From positions 682,001-746,000 of the forward strand of contig NZ_FXBL01000004.1 in the NCBI RefSeq assembly GCF_900177325.1: 64,000 nt of DNA, in the 5' to 3' direction. A program made the position numbers and the translations under genes. Of this stretch, positions 62 to 42,852 are shown piece after piece. This DNA is from Mesorhizobium australicum (GTDB lineage Bacteria; Pseudomonadota; Alphaproteobacteria; Rhizobiales; Rhizobiaceae). The notes under the pieces were generated by a model. That model searched no databases and was not told where the DNA came from. It saw only the letters and a list, made by a program, of their open reading frames with translations. Each line of letters opens with the position of its first letter. Positions within the stretch are counted from its first letter, which is position 1.

Positions 62-694
62 ATGACGATCGCAGCAGAACACACCGCGGGCAAACAGGAG
101 CCCGTCTTCTACCTCAGGGACGAGCACGGACATGCCGAGGGCGGCAGCACCATGCTCGGCTTCTGGATCTACCTGATGAGCGACTGCCTCATGTTCGCGG
201 TCCTGTTCGCGATCTATGGGGTGCTGGGCGCGAGCTATGCCGCCGGCCCTGCGCCGAAGGACCTCTTCGACCTCGAGCTCGTGGCGCTGAACACCGCCAT
301 GCTGCTCTTCTCGTCGATCACCTACGGCTTCGCCATGCTGGCCATGGTCAAGGGCAACGTGCGCGCGACGCTCGCCTGGCTCGCCATTACCGGCCTGTTC
401 GGCCTCGCCTTCCTCGGCATCGAGCTCTACGAGTTCCAGCACCTGATCCATATCGGCGCGACGCCGCAGCGCAGCGCCTTCCTGTCGTCCTTCTTCGTGC
501 TGGTCGGCACGCACGGCCTGCACGTCACCTTCGGCATCGTCTGGCTTGTGACGCTGATGGCGCAGGTGTGGGGGTTCGGGCTGATCGAGGCCAACCGGCG
601 GCGGCTGATGTGCCTGTCGATGTTCTGGCACTTCCTGGACGTCATCTGGATCGGCGTCTTCACCTTCGTCTATCTGATGGGAGTGCTGAGATGA
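62..694 (+). CDS. cyoC: Cytochrome o ubiquinol oxidase subunit III
   Basis: This is the heme-copper oxidase subunit III of the bo3-type quinol oxidase, an integral membrane component of the aerobic respiratory chain. The protein is about 210 residues with five hydrophobic segments. It carries the family-typical N-terminal stretch GFWIYLMSDCLMF, the central ELYEFQHLI and the FWHFLDVIWI motif near the C-terminus. The ATG at 62 is preferred. A GTG at 50 in the same frame would overlap the preceding cyoB tail. The stop overlaps the cyoD start (ATGA), indicating coupled translation. The family assignment is very safe; subunit stoichiometry and oxidase function follow from family knowledge. Confidence 0.95.
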   Translation: MTIAAEHTAGKQEPVFYLRDEHGHAEGGSTMLGFWIYLMSDCLMFAVLFAIYGVLGASYAAGPAPKDLFDLELVALNTAMLLFSSITYGFAMLAMVKGNVRATLAWLAITGLFGLAFLGIELYEFQHLIHIGATPQRSAFLSSFFVLVGTHGLHVTFGIVWLVTLMAQVWGFGLIEANRRRLMCLSMFWHFLDVIWIGVFTFVYLMGVLR

Positions 695-1077
695 GCGCTA
701 CGAACGCGGAATCGCACGCGGCCCACGATGCGGGGCATGGCGAGGACGGTCACGCGCACGGCTCGCTGCGCGGCTACCTGATCGGCTTCTTCCTGTCCGT
801 CGTGCTTACCGCCGTCCCGTTCTGGCTGGTGATGGGCGACGTGCTGGACAGCAAACAGCTGACCGGCTTCATCGTCATGGCGCTCGCGGTCGTGCAGATC
901 GTCGTCCACATGGTCTACTTCCTGCACATGGACACGCGTTCCGAGCAGGGATGGACGATGATGGCGCTGATCTTCACGCTGATCGTCGTCGTCATCGCGC
1001 TGTCCGGCTCGCTGTGGGTGATGTACCACCTCAACACCAACACCATGCCGTTCCACGACATGCAGCAGATGCCATGA
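691..1077 (+). CDS. cyoD: Cytochrome o ubiquinol oxidase subunit IV
   Basis: This is the small membrane subunit that assists CuB binding and assembly of the bo3 oxidase. The 128-residue protein has a His/Asp-rich cytoplasmic N-terminus (residues 8-25) followed by three hydrophobic helices. It contains the family signature VVHMVYFLHMD in the middle of the second and third helices. The ATG overlaps the cyoC stop by four bases, and its own stop overlaps the following SURF1 start (ATGA), so all three are probably one transcript. Length and topology match the family. Confidence 0.93.
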   Translation: MSATNAESHAAHDAGHGEDGHAHGSLRGYLIGFFLSVVLTAVPFWLVMGDVLDSKQLTGFIVMALAVVQIVVHMVYFLHMDTRSEQGWTMMALIFTLIVVVIALSGSLWVMYHLNTNTMPFHDMQQMP

Positions 1078-6902: not shown

Positions 6903-7013
6903 CGGTCATTCCTCGCGGGCATCGCCGGACAAGAGCCGTCCGATGAACACCTAGCTCCCGCGAAAGGGGGGCCGCGTTGACCAGGATCAACACGGCATCG
7001 GTCGTTGCGGGCC

Positions 7014-7955
7014 TCAGCCCCGCTTCGCCTCGACCGCGTCCCAGAACAATGCCGCGATATCCGCGCCGCCGAAGCGCTTCACCTCGCGCACGCCCGTCGG
7101 CGAGGTCACGTTGATCTCGGTCATGTAGTCACCGATCACGTCGATGCCGACCAGGATGAAGCCGCGTTCCTTCAGCGAGGGGCCGATGCGCTCACAGATC
7201 TCGCGCTCGCGTGGCGTCAGTTCGGTCGCTTCCGCGCGGCCGCCGACGTGCATGTTGGAGCGGCTGTCGTGCTCGGCCGGCACACGGTTGATCGCGCCCA
7301 CCGCCTCGCCGTCGATCAGGATGATGCGCTTGTCTCCCTTGCGCACGTCCTTCAGATACTGCTGCACGATGAACGGCTCGCGGAACATCTGGCCGAACAT
7401 CTCCAGCAGCGAGGCGAGGTTCCGGTCGTCCTCGCGCATGTGGAAGATGCCAGCGCCGCCATTGCCGTAGAGCGGCTTGACGATGATGTCGCCATGCGCC
7501 CTGCGGAAGGCGGCAACCTCCAGCGGGTCGCGGGTGATCAGCGTCGCCGGCATCAGGTCGGGGAACTCGGTGACGAAGATCTTCTCCGGCGAGTTGCGCA
7601 CCCAGGCGGGGTCGTTCACCACCAGCGTCTTCGGATGGATGCGCTCCAGCATGTGGGTGGTGGTGATGTAGTTCATGTCGAAGGGCGGGTCCTGGCGCAA
7701 AAGCACCACGTCCATCTCCGAAAGATCCGTGCGCACCGGCTCTGCGAGCGTGAAGTGGTCCCCCTTGACGTCCCGCACCTCCATCTCCTCGACGCGGGCG
7801 AAGATGCGGCCGTCCTCCTGGGTCAGCCGGTCGGGCGTGTAATGGTAGAGGCTATGGCCGCGCCGCTGCGCCTCCAGCGACAGCGCGAACGTCGTGTCGC
7901 CCGCGATGTTGACGGTGCGGATATGGTCCATCTGGACGGCGACGCGGAGCTTCAT
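7014..7955 (-). CDS. gshB: Glutathione synthetase
   Basis: This ATP-grasp ligase joins gamma-glutamylcysteine and glycine in the second step of glutathione synthesis. The 313-residue protein matches GshB along its length: VAVQMDHI at the N-terminus, [31 protein letters not shown], the ATP-grasp lysine segment [16 protein letters not shown], and the C-terminal [20 protein letters not shown]. It is a stand-alone gene here; gshA is not in the window. Normal length and all main blocks are present. Confidence 0.97.
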
Positions 7956-32904: not shown

Positions 32905-33408
32905 TCACATCTTCTCGCGGCCAAGGCCGATGAGGCGATCGAGCGACAGCGCGCCGCCGCCGTAGACGGCCAGCGTCAGCGCCATCGCAGCCCAGGGCAG
33001 GTGGAAGTTCGCCCAGCCCTCCGGCACGGTGATCTGGATCACCGCCGTCATGATGAGCAGGGCAAGCGCGGCGAAGCGCGTGCCCAAGCCGAGCACCAGG
33101 AGCACCGGCAGCACGATCTCCGCCGTTCCCGCGCCATAGGCTGCGGCCGTCGGGAACGGATAGGGATACTGCGCGCCAAAAACGTGCAGCTTGAATTCCT
33201 GCCCGAACAGGAACTGCGCGCCGCCTGACAGTTGCAGGAACCCGTCCCACTTGGTCAGCCCCGATTTGTAGAAGGGAACCGCCAGCGCCAGACGCAGCGC
33301 CAGCAGGGGCAGCGCCGCCGGCACCGAGGCGAGCCAGCCCTCCGCGCGCCGCACCGGCGCCAGCAGTTTCCATCCGCTGCCGGATGGCGCTTCAACCATG
33401 TCCGTCAT
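32905..33408 (-). CDS. DoxX-family membrane protein of the bufferin operon
   Basis: This is a four-helix membrane protein of 167 residues. It has the DoxX pattern LALRLALAVPFYKSGLTKWDGF, a periplasmic loop with GAQYPYPFPTAAAYGAGTAE, then IVLPVLLVLGLGTRFAALALLIMTAVIQ. The ATG lies 17 bases inside the end of the preceding DUF2063 gene. In DUF2282-DUF692-DUF2063 operons a DoxX gene is the usual fourth member. Its precise role (electron transfer to the maturation enzyme or transport) is not settled. Confidence 0.9.
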   Translation of the reverse strand: MTDMVEAPSGSGWKLLAPVRRAEGWLASVPAALPLLALRLALAVPFYKSGLTKWDGFLQLSGGAQFLFGQEFKLHVFGAQYPYPFPTAAAYGAGTAEIVLPVLLVLGLGTRFAALALLIMTAVIQITVPEGWANFHLPWAAMALTLAVYGGGALSLDRLIGLGREKM

Positions 33409-34183
33409 CCTCGTCTCCCTTGTCGTTCGAAACCGTGCCTGCAAATGCGCCCAGGCCCGTCAATCCGAGCAGTGCGGCGCCGAAATCGAAACCATCGTCG
33501 GCCGAGAGCGCCTGCGAGGCCGCTTCACCCAACGCCACGCCGTCGAGCAGTGCGGCGGCAAAGCTCGCGTCGCGCGCCGGCAGGATATGGACGCCGACCT
33601 CGAAGCCCGGCCGGACGATCAGCACCGTCTCGCCGCCCGCGGCCGAGATCGGCGCCACGACGTCCGCCTGGTGCGCCTGCCAGATTGTGCCCACGGCAAA
33701 ACGCGAGCGCACCAGTGCCGCCGCCGGATGCGGCGCAAGCCGCACGTCGCCCAGCGTCTCCGCCGGCAATGCGGCCAGTTGCGCGATGTCGAGCGGCGCG
33801 GCGTCTTCGGCGTGGTAGGCGCGCGTCACGGCAGCTTCCAACCGCGCGACATCGGCCAGGTAAGGCACTGACGCCACCGGCGCGAAGCCTCCGATGAAAT
33901 CGGGCAAGTCGTCGCCATAGGCGAAGAGCAGCGGCGAAGCGGGCCTCGCGCCGGCAATGTAGGCGCGCGCCATCAGCGCGAAGAACTCCTCGCCGACCAG
34001 CCGCTCGACGACGCGGAAGCGTGTCGCCAGCGTCTTGCGCAGGCCGACGGCGACATTGTTCCTGTAGACGGCGAAGCGCTTCTCGTCCGGCACGCCGCGC
34101 GCTGTCGTCAGACCTCCCGGCGAAGGCAGGGCAGGGTCGAGAAGCGCCGCCGCGAAGGCTGCCTCGGTAGCGGCGTGGCTCAT
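33392..34183 (-). CDS. DUF2063 / HvfC-BufC family partner protein
   Basis: This 263-residue protein has an N-terminal DUF2063 domain ([39 protein letters not shown]) and a C-terminal part of the HvfC type. These proteins bind the RiPP precursor and hand it to the DUF692 iron enzyme. The start overlaps the DUF692 stop by four bases, so the two subunits are made in coupled fashion. This matches the bufB-bufC order. Confidence 0.88.
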
Positions 34184-35076
34184 GCAGACGCCCTCCTCGG
34201 CAGTGTCGCAAAGCCCCGCCGCTTCGCCTCCTCTGCCAGCACTGCGTCGGCGCGCCGAGCCTCGTCATGGAGGATGGCGAAGCCCGGCACGTCGTTGTCC
34301 CATTCGATCAACGTTGCCACCGGACCGCAGCGACGGATCGCGTGGCGGTAGAGCGCAAACACGTCCTCCCTCACGCGCGAGCCGTGTGCGTCGATCAGAA
34401 GCCGCTCGCCGGCGCCGTCGACCGTCTCGTCATAGCCGGCGAGGTGAATTTCGCCGACGCGTTCGACCGGGAATCGGTCGACATAGGCGAGGGGGTCGAG
34501 CCCATGATTGACGGCCGACACCATCACATTGTTGACGTCGAGCAGCAGGCCGCAGCCGGTGCGTTCTGCGACGGCGTCGAGGAAGTCGATCTCGTCGATG
34601 CAGCTCTCCTCGAACAGGACATAGGTCGACGGGTTTTCGAGCAGCATCTGCCGGCCGGTCGCCTGCTGCACCTCGTCGACATGGTCGATGACGCGCGCCA
34701 GCGTTTCCGGCGTATAGGGCAGCGGCAGGAGGTCGTTGAGAAAGCCGGTGTCGTGGGTCGACCAGGCGAGATGTTCGGAAAACGATTGCGGCTTGTAGCG
34801 GTCGATCAACAGGCGCAGCCGCGCCAGATGCGCCCTGTCCAGCGGCCTCGCCGCGCCGATCGACAGGCCGACGCCGTGCAGCGACAGAGCGTAGCGCGCG
34901 GAGAGTTCCGCCAGCATGCGATGCGGCATGCCGCCCTCGCCCATATAGTTCTCGGCATGGACCTCCAGGAAACCGATATCCGGTTCCGTCTCCAAGACGT
35001 CGCCATAGTGCTCCGGCTTGAAGCCGATGCCGGCGCGCGGCGGCAGTCTGGAAGCATGGAGGGGTTCATAGGACAT
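34180..35076 (-). CDS. DUF692 multinuclear iron oxidative enzyme (BufB/HvfB/MbnB family)
   Basis: This is a TIM-barrel protein of 298 residues. Conserved DUF692 segments are GIGFKPEHY at the N-terminus, [67 protein letters not shown] and LIEWDNDVP. The His/Asp/Glu residues in these blocks coordinate iron in characterised members. MbnB converts cysteines in methanobactin precursors, and bufferin enzymes convert cysteines to thiooxazoles. With the adjacent DUF2063 partner and DUF2282 precursor it should modify BufA-like peptide cysteines. Confidence 0.93.
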
Positions 35077-35180
35077 GGCGGAATCTCGCTTCTTCGTGCT
35101 GGACGCTTCGGGCGATCGCCCCCGGCGAGTGTGGGCGGGGCCGGCGGGCCGATTGGCACGCCGGTCCCGCGCGAGAGGGA

Positions 35181-35468
35181 TCAGCCCTTCATCGGCTCGA
35201 GCATGCCCTTGTGACCGTTGACGTCCATCGTGGTGCAGGTGCCGGCCGGCACGGCCTTCCAGGCATTGCCCTGGTAGTCCATGGTCGAAGTGCCGGCGCA
35301 GGTGGTGCCTGCGCCCGCGGCGCAGTCGTTCTGGCCCTTCAGCGCGATGCCGTAGCACTTCTCCATGCCCACCATCTTCTCGGCGGGCAGCGGGGCTGCG
35401 TAGGCGGCGGTGGCGAAGGCGCTGGCGAGCGAGCCGGCAAGGGCGAGAGCGATGGTCTGGCGGTTCAT
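35181..35468 (-). CDS. DUF2282 bufferin-type RiPP precursor (BufA1-like)
   Basis: This 95-residue exported peptide is the likely substrate of the DUF692/DUF2063 pair. It has a signal peptide (hydrophobic [14 protein letters not shown], predicted cleavage after AAYA at 24) and a core with four cysteines at 38, 49, 57 and 78 ([22 protein letters not shown]). The [14 protein letters not shown] pattern is diagnostic of DUF2282. Characterised bufferins carry modified cysteines and bind copper in the periplasm. The first gene of the minus-strand operon, with a sigma-F-like promoter upstream. Confidence 0.93.
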
Positions 35469-35524
35469 AGTCTACTCCTCTGGAAGTCTTGGATGGAACG
35501 CGACATGCGCTCCATGACGGTGAC

Positions 35525-35551
35525 TTCGCTGCCAAGGGCCGCCGCGTTACA
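35525..35551 (-). promoter_or_regulatory. Candidate ECF sigma (sigma-F type) promoter of the bufferin operon
   Basis: Reading the minus strand, TGTAAC at 35551-35546 is followed after 17 bases by CGAA at 35528-35525. This matches the GTAAC...CGAA promoter form reported for Caulobacter sigma-F. It lies 57 bases upstream of the precursor ATG, a suitable leader length. Confidence 0.6.
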
Positions 35552-35616
35552 CTGCCCGCGAGCACGCTTTCGTGATGCTTGCGTGAGAAGCCCCGTGACA
35601 TTTCCGCCGCGGCCCG

Positions 35617-35642
35617 TGTAACAAATGCCGCCGCCCGACGAA
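35617..35642 (+). promoter_or_regulatory. Candidate autoregulatory ECF promoter of the sigma/anti-sigma pair
   Basis: TGTAAC at 35617-35622 and CGAA at 35639-35642, with 16 bases between, mirror the divergent site 66 bases away. The predicted start of transcription (about 35648) would give a leader of roughly a dozen bases containing GAGAAGG. That supports TTG at 35660 as the translation start. Confidence 0.55.
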
Positions 35643-35659
35643 GATGGGATGAGAAGGTC

Positions 35660-36187
35660 TTGACCGAAGCCGACGAAGCGGAACTCGCCCGCATGCTGCG
35701 GGCAGCGCTTTCAGGCGACGAGCAGGCCTATGCCGCGTTCCTGGAGCGCGTGGCCGCGCTGGTGCGCGCCGTCACGAGACGCAACGCCGGGAGCGGCGCC
35801 GAAGTCGAGGACATCGTGCAGGAAACGCTGCTGGCCATCCATCTCAAGCGCCACACCTGGCGTGCGGACGCGCCGGTCCGCCCGTGGATTTTCGCCATCG
35901 CGCGCTACAAGCTGGTCGACAGCCTCCGGCGGCGGGGCCGGCGGATCGAGGTCGACATCGCCGACTACGCCGAAACGCTGGCCGAGCCGGTCGAGGATGC
36001 CGCCAGCCCGCGCGAGATCGAGCGGGCGCTCGAACAGCTGCCGCCCGGCCAGCGCCGCGTTGTCTCTGCGGTCAGCGTCGAGGGCCTGTCGATCGGCGAG
36101 GCGGCGACGGCGTTCGGCATGAACGAGACCGCCGTGCGCGTCGCCCTGCATCGCGGGCTCGCGGCCATCGCCAGGGGACGCGGCTAG
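35660..36187 (+). CDS. ECF sigma factor (sigma-F-like, metal/oxidative stress type)
   Basis: This is a group IV sigma factor of 175 residues. Region 2 contains [20 protein letters not shown] and [22 protein letters not shown], and region 4 has [23 protein letters not shown] with [22 protein letters not shown] at 35660 with upstream GAGAAGG is preferred; an in-frame start at 35579 would place the promoter-like motif inside the gene. It pairs with the downstream NrsF-like protein and faces the bufferin operon. In Caulobacter this combination responds to heavy metals such as chromate and cadmium, and related loci to copper. Confidence 0.9.
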
Positions 36188-36300
36188 TTGAAGAAGCCTG
36201 CCGCATGTCCCAGCGAACGGCGCCTGGCTGGCGGATGGACCCGGCGCGCCATACATCGAGCACATCGGCCGAATGGCCGGGGAAGGATCTGAGCAGTCGA

Positions 36301-36936
36301 ATGGACACGCAAAGCCTCATTCGCGGCCTGTCGCGGGATACCGCCGGCGCCGGCCGGCTGGACCGGCGGCTGGCCGCGGGCTTTGCGCTCGCGGCGGGGC
36401 TGGCGGCCCTTGTCTTCCTCGTCCTGCTCGGACCGCGTCCGGACATCGCCGAGGCTGCGGCGACGTTGCGTTTCCCGTTCAAGTTCGTGGTGACGCTGGC
36501 CCTGGCCGCCTCCGCCGCTCTTGCCTGGCGCGCCGCCGCACGGCCGGGAACGTCGCTCGCACCCGCGGCCGCCGCGCTGCTCGCCGCGCCTCTTCTGCTC
36601 GCCGCGGGCGTGATCGCCGAACTGTTCACCGTGCCCGAGGGGGCGCGGATGGCGCGGCTGATCGGCACCAACTCGACCGTATGCCTCACCTTCATTCCGC
36701 TGATCGGCGCCCTGCCGCTCGCCATGCTTCTTGCCGCGCTGCGCAATGGAGCGCCGACCCGGCCGACGCTGGCCGGCGCCCTCAGCGGTCTTGCGGCCGG
36801 AGGTCTCGCGGCGACGTTCTACGCCGCCCACTGCATCGACGATTCGCCGCTCTTCGTCGCCGTCTGGTACACGCTCGCGATCGGCATGCTCACGCTCGCC
36901 GGCGCACTGGCCGGCCGCCTTGTCCTGCGCTGGTAG
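36301..36936 (+). CDS. NrsF-like anti-sigma factor (DUF1109)
   Basis: This is a six-helix inner-membrane protein of 211 residues with the DUF1109 start MDTQSLIRGLSRD. Two cysteines at 128 (STVCLTF) and 178 (AAHCIDD) lie in periplasm-facing positions. Paired conserved cysteines are required for signal sensing in Caulobacter NrsF. It follows the sigma factor by 113 bases on the same strand. An in-frame ATG at 36205 is a less convincing start. It should hold the sigma factor until metal or oxidative damage at the cysteines releases it. Confidence 0.9.
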   Translation: MDTQSLIRGLSRDTAGAGRLDRRLAAGFALAAGLAALVFLVLLGPRPDIAEAAATLRFPFKFVVTLALAASAALAWRAAARPGTSLAPAAAALLAAPLLLAAGVIAELFTVPEGARMARLIGTNSTVCLTFIPLIGALPLAMLLAALRNGAPTRPTLAGALSGLAAGGLAATFYAAHCIDDSPLFVAVWYTLAIGMLTLAGALAGRLVLRW

Positions 36937-36977: not shown

Positions 36978-37547
36978 TCAGTCCTTGGCGCGCTCGACAT
37001 AGGAGCCGTCGGCGGTCATTACCACGATGCGGGTGCCCACCTGGATGTGCGGCGGCACGGCCGAGCGCACGCCGTTCGACAGCACGGCCGGCTTGTAGGA
37101 CGACGACGCCGTCTGGCCCTTGGTCACCGGTTCGGTCTCCACCACTTCCAGCGTCACGCGCTGCGGCAGCTCGATCGCCACCGCCACGCCCTCGTGCACC
37201 GACAGCGTCACCTCCATGCCTTCCTGCAGGTAGGGTGCATAGTCGCCCACCACGTCGGGATGCACGGCGATCTGCTCGTAGGTCTCCATCTGCATGAAGT
37301 GGAAGCCCTCGCCGTCCTGGTAGAGGTAGTTGTACGGCCGGTCCTCGACATGGGCGCGTTCCACCTGCTCGGTGGTGCGGTAGCGCTCCGACACCTTCAC
37401 GCCGTCGGAGATGCGACGCATGTCCAGCTGGGTCACCGGCGTGCCCTTGCCGGGGTGGATGTTTTCAGCGAAGAGGATCGAATACAGCTTGCCGTCCTTT
37501 TCGACGACATTGCCCTTGCGGAGCGAACTCGCAATCACCTTCACCAT
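36978..37547 (-). CDS. efp: Elongation factor P
   Basis: EF-P rescues ribosomes stalled at polyproline. The 189-residue protein has the KOW-like first domain and two OB domains. The modified-loop lysine is Lys34 in HPGKGTP, the residue that EpmA beta-lysylates in enterobacteria. Conserved [21 protein letters not shown] and the C-terminal [20 protein letters not shown] are present. The modifying enzyme EpmA is encoded 355 bases away in divergent orientation. Confidence 0.97.
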
Positions 37548-38955: not shown

Positions 38956-39567
38956 TCAGCTGCCGCTCTTGATCATCGTCGTGGCGACGCCCGAGATCCG
39001 CCGCGTCATCGCCTCCGGGTCGCCGTCGATCTCGCCGCGCAGCCAGCGGATCACCAGCCACATGATGCCGCCGGCGAGCACCGCCATCAGGTCGTCCCTG
39101 GCCGCCAGCCCCTTGCGCGCCGCGATCTCGAACGCCTCCGGCAGCATGCGCTGCGCCACGAAGGCGACGATCTCCTCGAAGAACGCCACGTTGCCGCCGC
39201 CCTCCAGCACGCGCACGTAGAAGTCGCGATGCGCGCGCAGGTGCGTGAGCACCGGCAGCGTGTGCCGCTCGATCTGCCCCCGCATCTCCGCCGTCGCCAT
39301 CCCGGCCAGCGCCGCCGCCGGCTGCGGGATCGGAAACGCGTCTGCCAGCCGCGCCAGCCCTGCCCGCCGCGCCGCATCCGGCAGGTCGGCGAAGTGCTGG
39401 TAGAAGGTCGGCCGCGTCACCCCGGCCGCCTCGACGATCCGCGTGATCGACAGGTCCTGCAGCGGCTCGCGGTCGAGCAGCTCCGACACCGCGTCCACCA
39501 GCGCCTTCAGGCTGCGCTGGAAGCGGGGGTCCTCCGCTCTCGGTCTCGCCGACTGCACGATCGCCAC
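38956..39567 (-). CDS. TetR family transcriptional regulator
   Basis: This is a 203-residue regulator with a TetR HTH at the N-terminus (LSITRIVEAAGVTRPTFYQHFAD) and an all-helical ligand domain. It is divergent from a CYP102-type P450 gene 97 bases away. In Bacillus megaterium the P450 BM3 gene is likewise repressed by a TetR protein (BM3R1) induced by fatty acids, so this is the likely repressor of the P450. Ends six bases from the convergent epmA stop. Confidence 0.9.
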   Translation of the reverse strand: MAIVQSARPRAEDPRFQRSLKALVDAVSELLDREPLQDLSITRIVEAAGVTRPTFYQHFADLPDAARRAGLARLADAFPIPQPAAALAGMATAEMRGQIERHTLPVLTHLRAHRDFYVRVLEGGGNVAFFEEIVAFVAQRMLPEAFEIAARKGLAARDDLMAVLAGGIMWLVIRWLRGEIDGDPEAMTRRISGVATTMIKSGS

Positions 39568-39606: not shown

Positions 39607-39663
39607 TTTAGTCTGCCGCGCTTGTCCGGTCAAGCGCCTGCCTCTGTCCGAAGGTGCACACCC

Positions 39664-42600
39664 ATGGCCCAAGACACAACGACCCCCCGGATCCCCCAGC
39701 CGCCGCTGCGGCCTTTCGTCGGCAACCTGCCCGAGCTCGACACCGATGCTCCGGTGCAGAGCCTGATGCGGCTTGCCCGCACCTACGGCCCGTTCTTCCG
39801 CCTGCGCATCCTCGATCGCGAGTTCTACGTCGCGAGCTCGCAGGAACTGGTCAACGAGCTCTGCGACGAGAGCCGCTTCAACAAGCGCGTCCACCCGCCG
39901 CTCAAGGAAATCCGCGCCTTTGCCGGCGACGGCCTGTTCACCGCCTACAACAGCGAGCCCAACTGGGCGAAGGCCCACCGGCTGCTGATGCCCGCCTTCG
40001 GGCCGATCGGCGTGCGCTCCATGTTCGACCGCATGCTCGACATCGCCGACCAGATGTTCGTCCGCTGGGTGCGCTTCGGCCCCGCCGCCTCGATCGACGT
40101 CGCCGACAACATGACGCGGCTCACCCTCGACACGATCGCGCTCTGTGCCTTCGACTACCGCTTCAACAGCTTCTACCGCGACGAGATGCATCCCTTCGTC
40201 GGCGCCATGGTCGGCGCCCTGTCGGAATCCGGCCAGCGCGCCCGCCGGCCGAAGCTGATGACCAGCCTGATGCTGTCCACCGCCCGCCGCTTCGACAGCG
40301 ACGCCGCCCTCATGCGCTCGGTCGCGCAGGAGCTGATCGCCGAGCGCCGCCGCGATCCCAGGGGCGCCGAAAAGCACGACCTGCTCAACATCATGCTCAA
40401 CGGCGTCGACCCGGTCACCGGCGAGAAGCTCGACGACGAGAACATCGGCTATCAGATGATCACCTTCCTGATCGCCGGCCACGAAACCACCAGCGGCCTG
40501 CTGTCCTTCGCCACCTACCTTCTGCTGAAGAACCCGCAGGTGCTGGCAAAGGCCCGCGCGGTCGTGGACGAGGTGCTGGGCGACGAGATGCCCCGCGTCG
40601 AGCACCTGGCGCAGCTGCGCTATATCGAACAGGTCCTGATGGAGAGCCTGCGCATCTGGCCGACGGCCTCCGTCTTCGCCGTCAAGCCGCTCGAGGACAC
40701 GCTGCTTGCCGGCAAATATCCGCTCACGCCCGACGACAGCGTGATGATCCTGGAGCCGATGCTCCACCGCGACCCCGCTGTCTGGGGCGACGATGCCGAG
40801 GCTTTCGTCCCCGAGCGCTTCGCCCCGGAAAACGCCGAAAAGCTGCCGCCCAATGCCTGGAAGCCGTTCGGCAATGGCGCGCGTGCCTGCATCGGCCGGC
40901 CCTTCGCCATGCAGGAGGCGCAGCTGGTGCTCGCCATGATGCTGCAGCGTTTCGACATCGCCTTCGACGACCCCTCCTATCAGTTGAAGATCCACGAGAC
41001 GCTGACCATCAAGCCGGAAGGCCTGCGCATCCGCGCCCGCTCGCGCCGCTCTGCCCAGGCGCTGGTGCGCGCGCCTTCGCTCGCCGCCCCGCAGAAGATG
41101 CTGGCGCCCGCCGCGCCCGCGCCGCTGCGCGAGGGCGAGGCCGCCACCGCGCTGCTTGTCCTCTACGGCTCCAACACCGGCTCCTCCGAGGCCTTCGCCA
41201 ACCGCATCGCCGCCGACGCCCCGTCCTACGGCTTCGCGCCCACCGTGGCGCCGATGGACGATTTTGCCGGCCGCCTGCCGACGGACGGCGCGGTCGTCGT
41301 CGTCACGGCCTCCTACGAAGGCCAGCCGCCGGACAATGCGCGCCGCTTCGTCGCCGATGTCGAAGCGCTCGCGTCCGGCTCCCTCGAAGACCTGCCCTTC
41401 GCCGTCTTCGGCTGCGGCAACCGCCAGTGGGCGCGCACCTTCCAGGCGATCCCCAAGCGCGTCGACGCGGCCCTTGAAAAGGCCGGCGGCCGGCGCGTCG
41501 CCCCGCGCGGCGAGGCCGATTCCGGCGGCGACTTCTTCGGCGCCTTCGACGAATGGTATGCCGCGTTCTGGCCGGCGCTTTCCGCCGCCTTCGGCCGGCA
41601 GGCCGCCGTACCCGAAGCGCCGGCGGGAATCCATCTCGACTTCGTCAAGGCCGGCCGCGAAAGCGCGTTGCGGCTCGGCGACCTCAAGCAGGGCGTCGTG
41701 GTCGAGAACCGCGAGCTGGTCGACATGGCCGCTGCCGGCGCCCGCTCCAAGCGCCATATCGAGTTCGCCCTGCCCGAGGGCATGACCTACCGCGCCGGCG
41801 ACTATCTCGCCGTGCTCGCCCGCAATCCGGACGCGCTGGTCGACCGCGTGCTGCGCCGCTTCGGCCTTTCCTCCGACACTCTGGTGGTCATCGACCGCGC
41901 CGCCGGCTCCACCGGCCTGCCGGTCGGCCATCCGGTCAGCTGCGGCGAGCTCATCGCCAACTATGTCGAGCTCGCCCAGCCCGCCACCCGCGCCCAGGTC
42001 GCCGCGCTCGCCGCGGCCACCCGCTGCCCGCCGGAGAAGAAGGAGCTGGAGGCGCTCGCCGGCGACGGCTACGAGAACGAGGTACTCGGCCGCCGCTTCA
42101 GCGTCATCGACCTGCTCGACCGCTTCCAGTCCTGCCCGATCGATTTCGCCCGCTTCCTCGACATGCTGCCGCCGATGAAGGCGCGGCAATATTCCATCTC
42201 GTCCTCGCCGCTGTGGAACCCGGCCAACGCCACGCTCACCATCGCCGTGGTCGACGCGCCGGCGATGTCAGGCGTCGGCCGCTACCAGGGCGTCGCCTCC
42301 TCCTATCTGGCGGGGCTCGAACCCGGCGACCGCGTCTCCATCGCCGTGCGCCCGTCCAATGCGCGCTTCCATCCGCCGGCCGATCCGAAGACGCCGCTGG
42401 TGATGATCTGCGCCGGCTCCGGCCTCGCGCCCTTCCGCGGTTTCCTGCAGGAGCGCGCCGCGCAGAAGGCCGCCGGCCAGGAGGTCGGCCCGGCGCTCCT
42501 GTTCTTCGGCACCAACCATCCCGATGTCGACTACCTCTACCGCGACGAGCTCGCGGCCTGGCAGAACGACGGCGTCGTCACCGTCCTGCCCGCCTTCTCC

Positions 42601-42852
42601 GACGCGCCGGAGGGCGACATCCGCTTCGTCCAGCACCGCGTCTGGTCCGACCGCGCCCTGATCGCCGACCTCTTCCGCCGGGGCGGCACCGTCTTCGTCT
42701 GCGGCGACGGCAAGCACATGGCGCCTGCCGTGCGCGAAACCCTGGTCAAGATCTACCGCGACACCACCGGCGCCTCGGCAGAAGACGCCGACACCTGGGC
42801 TGACACGATCGAGCGCGACCACGGGAGATATGTGGCCGACGTGTTCGCGTGA
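39664..42852 (+). CDS. Self-sufficient cytochrome P450-reductase fusion (CYP102 / P450 BM3 type)
   Basis: This is a fatty-acid or aromatic hydroxylase carrying its own reductase, 1062 residues. P450 domain (1-470): I-helix AGHETT 271-276, ExxR Glu327-Arg330, heme loop FGNGARACIG with ligand Cys409. A linker rich in Ala/Pro leads to a flavodoxin FMN domain (LVLYGSNTGSSEAFA), then FAD and NADPH domains (RQYSISSSPLW, AGSGLAPFRGFLQER, VFVCGDGKHMAP). All cofactor motifs are intact. It is probably repressed by the divergent TetR. Substrate is inferred from the family only. Confidence 0.96.
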   Translation: MAQDTTTPRIPQPPLRPFVGNLPELDTDAPVQSLMRLARTYGPFFRLRILDREFYVASSQELVNELCDESRFNKRVHPPLKEIRAFAGDGLFTAYNSEPNWAKAHRLLMPAFGPIGVRSMFDRMLDIADQMFVRWVRFGPAASIDVADNMTRLTLDTIALCAFDYRFNSFYRDEMHPFVGAMVGALSESGQRARRPKLMTSLMLSTARRFDSDAALMRSVAQELIAERRRDPRGAEKHDLLNIMLNGVDPVTGEKLDDENIGYQMITFLIAGHETTSGLLSFATYLLLKNPQVLAKARAVVDEVLGDEMPRVEHLAQLRYIEQVLMESLRIWPTASVFAVKPLEDTLLAGKYPLTPDDSVMILEPMLHRDPAVWGDDAEAFVPERFAPENAEKLPPNAWKPFGNGARACIGRPFAMQEAQLVLAMMLQRFDIAFDDPSYQLKIHETLTIKPEGLRIRARSRRSAQALVRAPSLAAPQKMLAPAAPAPLREGEAATALLVLYGSNTGSSEAFANRIAADAPSYGFAPTVAPMDDFAGRLPTDGAVVVVTASYEGQPPDNARRFVADVEALASGSLEDLPFAVFGCGNRQWARTFQAIPKRVDAALEKAGGRRVAPRGEADSGGDFFGAFDEWYAAFWPALSAAFGRQAAVPEAPAGIHLDFVKAGRESALRLGDLKQGVVVENRELVDMAAAGARSKRHIEFALPEGMTYRAGDYLAVLARNPDALVDRVLRRFGLSSDTLVVIDRAAGSTGLPVGHPVSCGELIANYVELAQPATRAQVAALAAATRCPPEKKELEALAGDGYENEVLGRRFSVIDLLDRFQSCPIDFARFLDMLPPMKARQYSISSSPLWNPANATLTIAVVDAPAMSGVGRYQGVASSYLAGLEPGDRVSIAVRPSNARFHPPADPKTPLVMICAGSGLAPFRGFLQERAAQKAAGQEVGPALLFFGTNHPDVDYLYRDELAAWQNDGVVTVLPAFSDAPEGDIRFVQHRVWSDRALIADLFRRGGTVFVCGDGKHMAPAVRETLVKIYRDTTGASAEDADTWADTIERDHGRYVADVFA

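Follow-up and report, generated by a model that had tools for sequence, protein, structure and literature searches.

Bufferins of the Buf1 type belong to the bufferin/captophorin family, whose members are ribosomally synthesized and post-translationally modified peptides that acquire 5-thiooxazoles through the action of an MNIO enzyme. In Caulobacter, the thiooxazoles of Buf1 chelate both Cu(I) and Cu(II), and the first and last cysteines of Buf1 are reported to form a disulfide while the central two are modified (PMC12452194). According to the same 2025 survey of MNIO systems, genes for a sigma factor and for NrsF occur in Buf1 but not in Buf2 clusters. The Caulobacter SigF/NrsF pair drives CC3254-3257 through GTAACC-N16-CGAA, and cysteine substitution in NrsF affects repression (PMC3511200); the SigF genes form part of the core copper response, are induced by copper, and a sigF::Tn5 mutant grows poorly in its presence (PMC8224329). 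In Sinorhizobium meliloti, the unit rpoE7-ecfR7/SMb20530-SMb20527 is called orthologous to Caulobacter CC3254-3257 by its authors (PMC6180224). A locus of this kind is described here from Mesorhizobium australicum, at positions 32905-36936 of a stretch of 64,000 nucleotides (the window; contig NZ_FXBL01000004.1, positions 682,001 to 746,000, assembly GCF_900177325.1). It consists of a Buf1-type bufferin operon, bufA-bufB-bufC-doxX, on the minus strand, divergent from a gene for an extracytoplasmic function (ECF) sigma factor and nrsF on the plus strand, and it is highly probable that the cluster is governed by its own ECF16 sigma/NrsF switch and responds to copper.

The sigma-NrsF-bufferin arrangement is canonical, with no special combination of genes, and has already been described in close relatives. 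In Caulobacter vibrioides the same six gene families are adjacent (sigF-nrsF, CC3253-CC3252, and CC3254-CC3257, the bufferin 1 cluster), with a divergent order that can be deduced from the gene numbers, and both the sigma-factor gene and bufA are preceded, as in the window, by GTAACC-N16-CGAA promoters. The bufA transcript starts 61 nt from the start codon in Caulobacter; for the window, a leader of approximately 50 nt is predicted. In Caulobacter, SigF also drives a second cluster (CC2907-2905), and MsrPQ belongs to the regulon, whereas the M. australicum genome holds a single MNIO locus and has no GTAAC-type ECF16 site at its two PF00174 loci. The S. meliloti unit is the same one: both of its promoters are listed, RpoE7 has seven targets overall (PMC6180224), and the Sinorhizobium/Ensifer loci retrieved here show the divergent order of the window. 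With the Buf1 family as a whole, the window shares the four-cysteine DUF2282 precursor, the MNIO enzyme, the DUF2063 and DoxX proteins and the sigma/NrsF pair; in gene content, no family-level difference was found. The Bradyrhizobium EcfF-OsrA pair resembles the regulatory half only: it combines an ECF16 sigma factor with a DUF1109/NrsF anti-sigma factor bearing two conserved cysteines, under an autoregulated GTAAC promoter, but differs in having methionine-sulfoxide reductases in its regulon, a methionine-rich anti-sigma factor and hydrogen peroxide as inducer. No bufferin targets are reported for it in the available text, where neither DUF692 nor DoxX is mentioned (PMC3420878).

An earlier reading of this DNA from its letters alone (the sequence-only reading) had proposed a complete bufferin-type locus facing an ECF sigma and DUF1109/NrsF-like module. 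Its coordinates and all six genes were right, and every one of the six proteins matches Pfam profiles above the curated cut-offs. The precursor gene bufA (35181..35468, minus strand) encodes a Buf1 (DUF2282) protein of 95 residues that matches PF10048 with 88.8 bits (cut-off 22.4, E 2.3e-25). Its cysteines 38, 49, 57 and 78 are all kept in 42/42 aligned sequences, the window included, in agreement with the four-cysteine DUF2282 precursor that had been claimed. A putative Sec-type signal peptide, clearly read by eye in the translation, spans approximately residues 1-24 (35397..35468, minus strand) and ends between AYA and A; many of the homologues in the alignment set have related N-termini, and several of the top ones carry the NCBI name 'BufA1 family periplasmic bufferin-type metallophore'. 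The maturase gene bufB (34180..35076, minus strand; 298 residues, MNIO/DUF692) scores 374 bits with NCBIfam NF050167 MNIO_BufB (cut-off 310) and 345 bits with PF05114, and its product aligns with the solved MNIO/DUF692 proteins 3bww, 8hci and 7dz9, in which the positions of its E, D, H and D-x-H residues, presumably the iron ligands, have their counterparts. The product of bufC (33392..34183, minus strand; 263 residues) is a DUF2063 partner protein, the PME type 1 partner of Buf1 clusters (PF09836, 81 bits, cut-off 27, E 5.7e-23), for which a sequence search of solved structures gave no match. The operon closes with doxX (32905..33408, minus strand), encoding a DoxX-family membrane protein (PF07681, 66 bits, cut-off 24, E 4e-18, scanned as a longer mechanical open reading frame to 33444); many Buf1 clusters, though not all, include such a gene.

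On the plus strand, the sigma-factor gene (35660..36187, 175 residues, ECF16 type) shows Sigma70_r2 and r4_2 domains and matches NF009165 with 234 bits (cut-off 198), likewise scanned as a longer mechanical reading frame, from 35579; nrsF (36301..36936) encodes a six-helix membrane anti-sigma factor of 211 residues (PF06532, 183.9 bits, cut-off 27). DUF2282, MNIO and NrsF each occur in single copy in the 5.86 Mb genome, so that sensor, precursor and enzyme make up one locus. The description of the minus-strand genes as one overlapping operon holds in part: bufB shares 4 nt with bufC, and an ATG start of doxX at 33408 would give it a 17-nt overlap with bufC, but 104 nt, in which a hairpin can form, separate bufA from bufB, and the description is therefore true of bufB, bufC and doxX only.

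The gap between bufA and the sigma-factor gene (35469-35659, 191 bp) contains two back-to-back ECF16-type promoter motifs. The predicted promoter of the bufA operon (35525..35550, minus strand) reads tGTAAC-N17-CGAA and lies 56 nt upstream of the bufA ATG, and that of the sigma-nrsF operon (35618..35642, plus strand), which would provide autoregulation, reads tGTAAC-N16-CGAA; the published ECF16 consensus is given as tGTAACc-N16-CGAA (PMC3420878) or (T/C)GTAAC-N17-CGAA (PMC8315932). The pattern GTAAC-N16/17-CGAA occurs at 20 sites in the genome, compared with 79 for a reversed-pattern control, and two of the 20 fall within the 191-bp gap. The most likely start codon of the sigma-factor gene is TTG 35660 and not the beginning of the longer reading frame at 35579, which lies upstream of the gene's own promoter. 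Among 46 loci aligned to residue 1 or 2, the codon at residue 1 is GTG in 28, TTG in 17 and ATA in one, and never ATG; such GTG and TTG starts may hold translation of the sigma factor low. A small wider regulon may extend beyond the locus. Three sites located by eye upstream of genes (for a Bax1-I family protein, an M20 peptidase and a TetR regulator) were judged likely to be chance occurrences, and a mechanical scan of reading frames sorts the 20 sites poorly, with long spurious frames covering most of them, both genuine ones included.

Conservation was assessed in the best 80 of at least 559 NrsF loci, chosen through NrsF alignment and therefore representing near relatives rather than a random sample, with the looser promoter pattern GTAAC-N15-18-CG(A/T)A. 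A full bufferin block is present in 41 of them and a partial block, at a contig end, in one; in a further four, nrsF has no adjacent sigma-factor gene. All but one of the 41 full-block loci are divergent, the exception being L081, where the block lies downstream and has a GTAAC site of its own. In the 40 divergent relatives the bufA promoter site is found in every case and the sigma promoter site in 39, so that both are present in 39/40. The divergent gaps hold 79 sites in 10,428 bp; the rest of the 80 loci, 1,062,621 bp in length, holds 59, among which are still the sigma promoters of loci outside the divergent group. Of 101 genomes sampled from the family to which the window belongs, its own genome among them, 54 contain DUF2282.

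NrsF contains two cysteines, C128 and C178, which are invariant in 27/27 aligned sequences, and H177 is nearly so. An AlphaFold2 model of the protein (predicted local distance difference test score, 92) shows long helices at residues 3-42, 57-79, 87-110 (broken), 125-147, 155-175 and 183-208; C178 is placed between the last two, in the 176-182 loop, and C128 where the fourth begins. If the N-terminus is cytoplasmic, both cysteines of the model would face the periplasm. By position, though not by alignment, they correspond to C129 and C179 of OsrA, whose authors put the counterpart of C128 inside the membrane (PMC3420878). The two periplasmic cysteines of the sequence-only reading are thus roughly right, C178 falling in the putative periplasmic loop and C128 at the putative periplasmic end of a helix, with the OsrA placement speaking against the latter. 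A fold search of the PDB with NrsF gave 0 matches at E <= 0.001.

Sigma dependence and promoters have been demonstrated for the homologues in Caulobacter and S. meliloti, and copper induction, copper sensitivity of the sigF mutant and copper chelation by thiooxazoles in Caulobacter. By analogy, copper is likely to be the signal in M. australicum as well. In unstressed cells NrsF, embedded in the inner membrane by its six helices, would hold the sigma factor. An excess of copper in the periplasm, or of a different thiol-reactive metal, would act on NrsF through C178 in the loop and C128 at the helix end, a sensing step that we infer, and would set the sigma factor free. The freed sigma factor would fire the two divergent promoters, that of its own operon and that of bufA-bufB-bufC-doxX, and autoactivation of sigma-nrsF would supply both amplification and fresh NrsF for resetting the switch. 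BufB, with its partner BufC, would convert Cys49 and Cys57 of BufA into thiooxazoles before Sec export, and the mature peptide would chelate copper in the periplasm, with DoxX in an accessory membrane role. The self-contained copper- or heavy-metal-responsive unit that had been suggested is in this sense supported by sequence, promoters, conservation and the literature, the metal response itself being drawn by analogy from Caulobacter, where, as the sequence-only reading had noted, sigma-F/NrsF does drive related genes under metal stress (PMC3511200, PMC8224329).

Several points weigh against a dedicated copper-responsive bufferin switch. BufA has no NCBIfam family at E <= 0.001, and three partners score under the NCBIfam cut-offs, namely BufC with NF050145 HvfC (31 bits, cut-off 142), DoxX with NF050144 HvfX (58.9 bits, cut-off 80) and NrsF with the Caulobacter-type AntiSigF_NrsF equivalog NF042994 (92 bits, cut-off 300), so that membership rests on Pfam and MNIO_BufB. 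In 34 of the 80 loci, no bufferin match accompanies the sigma-nrsF pair within the stretch retrieved, some stretches ending at contig ends, and the sigma promoter site is kept in all 34; the switch is therefore not bound to bufferins everywhere. These pairs are also what might be seen if the two halves of the locus were chance neighbours and the sigma factor had no control of the bufferin operon. Such an explanation is scarcely credible in view of the promoter motifs that the gap carries on either strand and their retention in 39/40 divergent relatives, of the full block present at 41 of these 80 near loci, divergent in all but one, and of the sigma dependence established in the Caulobacter and S. 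meliloti homologues.

A further point against copper is that other ECF16 pairs answer to hydrogen peroxide, as in Bradyrhizobium OsrA (PMC3420878), or to hypochlorous acid, as in Brucella AbcS (PMC8315932). The same genes and promoters could accordingly serve a different cue, a thiol or methionine oxidant (hydrogen peroxide, singlet oxygen or hypochlorous acid) sensed by NrsF, with the peptide guarding the envelope against the oxidant or against copper made toxic by oxidation. In Bradyrhizobium, induction of EcfF-OsrA by hydrogen peroxide proceeds through Cys179 (PMC3420878), in Brucella it is the BcrS-AbcS pair that hypochlorous acid induces (PMC8315932), and a DoxX homologue has been tied to oxidative or sulphur stress (PMC12452194). 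On the other hand, the regulons of both pairs hold methionine-sulfoxide reductases, whereas no GTAAC-N15-18-CG(A/T)A site was found at the two PF00174 (MsrP-like) loci of the M. australicum genome within stretches of about 3.4 kb each, sequence farther upstream and other reductase families not having been searched. A degenerate search there returned one GGAAC-type and two GTCAC-type sites at one locus (L112) and none at the other (L113). This argument is weak because the copper-responsive Caulobacter regulon holds MsrPQ too. The eight periplasmic-loop methionines of OsrA are also unmatched in NrsF, which has four methionines in all (residues 1, 117, 142 and 196), with only M117 in a putative periplasmic stretch between helices. 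The S. meliloti counterpart is not induced by hydrogen peroxide (PMC6180224), nor are the SigF-dependent genes of Caulobacter by agents that generate reactive oxygen species (PMC3511200). Taken with these observations, an oxidant as the cue seems fairly unlikely.

The S. meliloti promoter fusions were silent not only with 1 mM hydrogen peroxide but also with cadmium and chromate (PMC6180224), which counts against the copper-responsive reading inasmuch as the signal cannot simply be 'any heavy metal'; in the available text of that paper copper is mentioned once, in connection with another protein. The same silence argues against a general response to heavy metals (chromate, cadmium, gold or silver) in place of one to copper specifically. 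Such a response would fit the triggering of Caulobacter SigF by chromate and cadmium (PMC3511200) and the induction of the related gig cluster of Cupriavidus by gold, silver and copper (PMC8224329), but loss of sigF in Caulobacter leaves viability with dichromate or cadmium unaffected and impairs growth in copper (PMC3511200, PMC8224329). A general heavy-metal role is accordingly regarded as distinctly unlikely, and a copper-responsive Buf1 cluster controlled by an ECF16 sigma/NrsF switch of its own remains the preferred reading.

The one detail of the locus not found described in the bufferin literature examined is a stem-loop between bufA and bufB (35135..35170, minus strand), which begins 10 nt beyond the stop codon of bufA and consists of two 16-nt arms with two mismatches and no U-tract. 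The terms 'hairpin', 'terminator' and 'stem-loop' are absent from the main text of the MNIO survey PMC12452194, and 'hairpin' and 'terminator' from that of PMC13097082; among eight papers retrieved on the subject, the three containing 'stem-loop' do not, to judge by their titles, concern bufferins, the literature not having been searched more widely for such a hairpin. A tolerant stem score was applied to the bufA-bufB gap over its first 70 nt, and the near relatives were taken as the 22 loci, window included, with a BufB at least 64% identical to that of the window, a split chosen after the list had been seen; the controls were two coding stretches of equal length, not other intercistronic gaps. 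The threshold was reached in 19/22 near loci and in 0/22 of each coding control, and at 18 of the 22 no more than 5/100 dinucleotide shuffles gave as good a stem (0/100 for the window). Among the 19 stems, 18 distinct inner-arm sequences occur; the structure is kept and the sequence is not. Two of them lie farther from the stop codon, at 26 nt in L044, where the stem does not differ significantly from those of shuffled sequence (p 0.08), and at 41 nt in L082. Among the 20 more distant loci the threshold was reached in four, compared with 0 and 1 in the controls, giving 23/42 over all loci with 0/42 and 1/42 in the coding controls.

A strict test (a stem of 8 bp or more without mismatch) was passed by 12/42 gaps compared with 0/42 and 1/42 coding controls, but the window fails it, with a best perfect stem of 5 bp. 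In the window the local stem alone is extreme, and not the fold of the whole gap (z -1.6, 14/200 shuffles as good, a few bufA bases being included), other folds of the gap giving z -2.2 (60 shuffles) and z -1.7 (first 70 nt). The 104-nt gap is found once in the genome and is therefore not a repeat element. A simple intrinsic terminator was considered and rejected, as 0/19 near-clade stems are followed by four T in a row within the next 8 nt; the missing T run would favour a stabiliser of the transcript end, or a pause, over a strong terminator. The chances seem about even that a stem-loop under selection is shared by the bufferin operons of the clade to which the window belongs, and that it uncouples expression of the precursor from that of the enzyme, as a 3'-end stabiliser or partial terminator. 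We infer for it a role in which it may set expression of the precursor above that of the enzyme.

In the Sinorhizobium/Ensifer loci, the BufB proteins are 51-57% identical to that of the window and the hairpin threshold was reached in 3/12. The BufA proteins of these loci (for example at L068, L077 and L080) have a longer stretch from the signal peptide to the first cysteine. The longer spacer and the mostly absent hairpin together suggest that Buf1 may here split into two groups.

At the four loci where nrsF has no adjacent sigma-factor gene (L049, L067, L076 and L103), the gene, at 7001-7636 (7001-7633 in L076), retains both cysteine codons and has its own GTAAC-N17-CGAA promoter. The last of these shares one Mesorhizobium assembly with L035, which carries a sigma-nrsF pair, and the sigma-less copies are possibly a second, feedback anti-sigma factor. 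On the short contig of L054, a divergent ECF16 promoter faces an in-frame stretch (680-870, minus strand) with a beginning similar to the signal peptide of BufA but no cysteine core; it is perhaps a decayed bufA.

Close to the locus, the window contains a gene for elongation factor P (36978-37547, minus strand) beside one for a class II tRNA-synthetase-like protein (up to 38949, plus strand), which is perhaps an EpmA-type modifier of elongation factor P. A cytochrome P450 fused to a flavodoxin/FAD/NAD reductase, of a kind we would label P450 BM3-like, is encoded at 39622-42852 (plus strand) and adjoins a TetR gene (38956-39567, minus strand).

The sigma-NrsF-bufferin unit of M. australicum is a compact conserved module of rhizobia-like Alphaproteobacteria, very probably serving under copper stress, and the promoter pair of the locus is directly testable. 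Should the intercistronic hairpin be functional, it would account for how one transcript could yield more chelator peptide than maturation enzyme.

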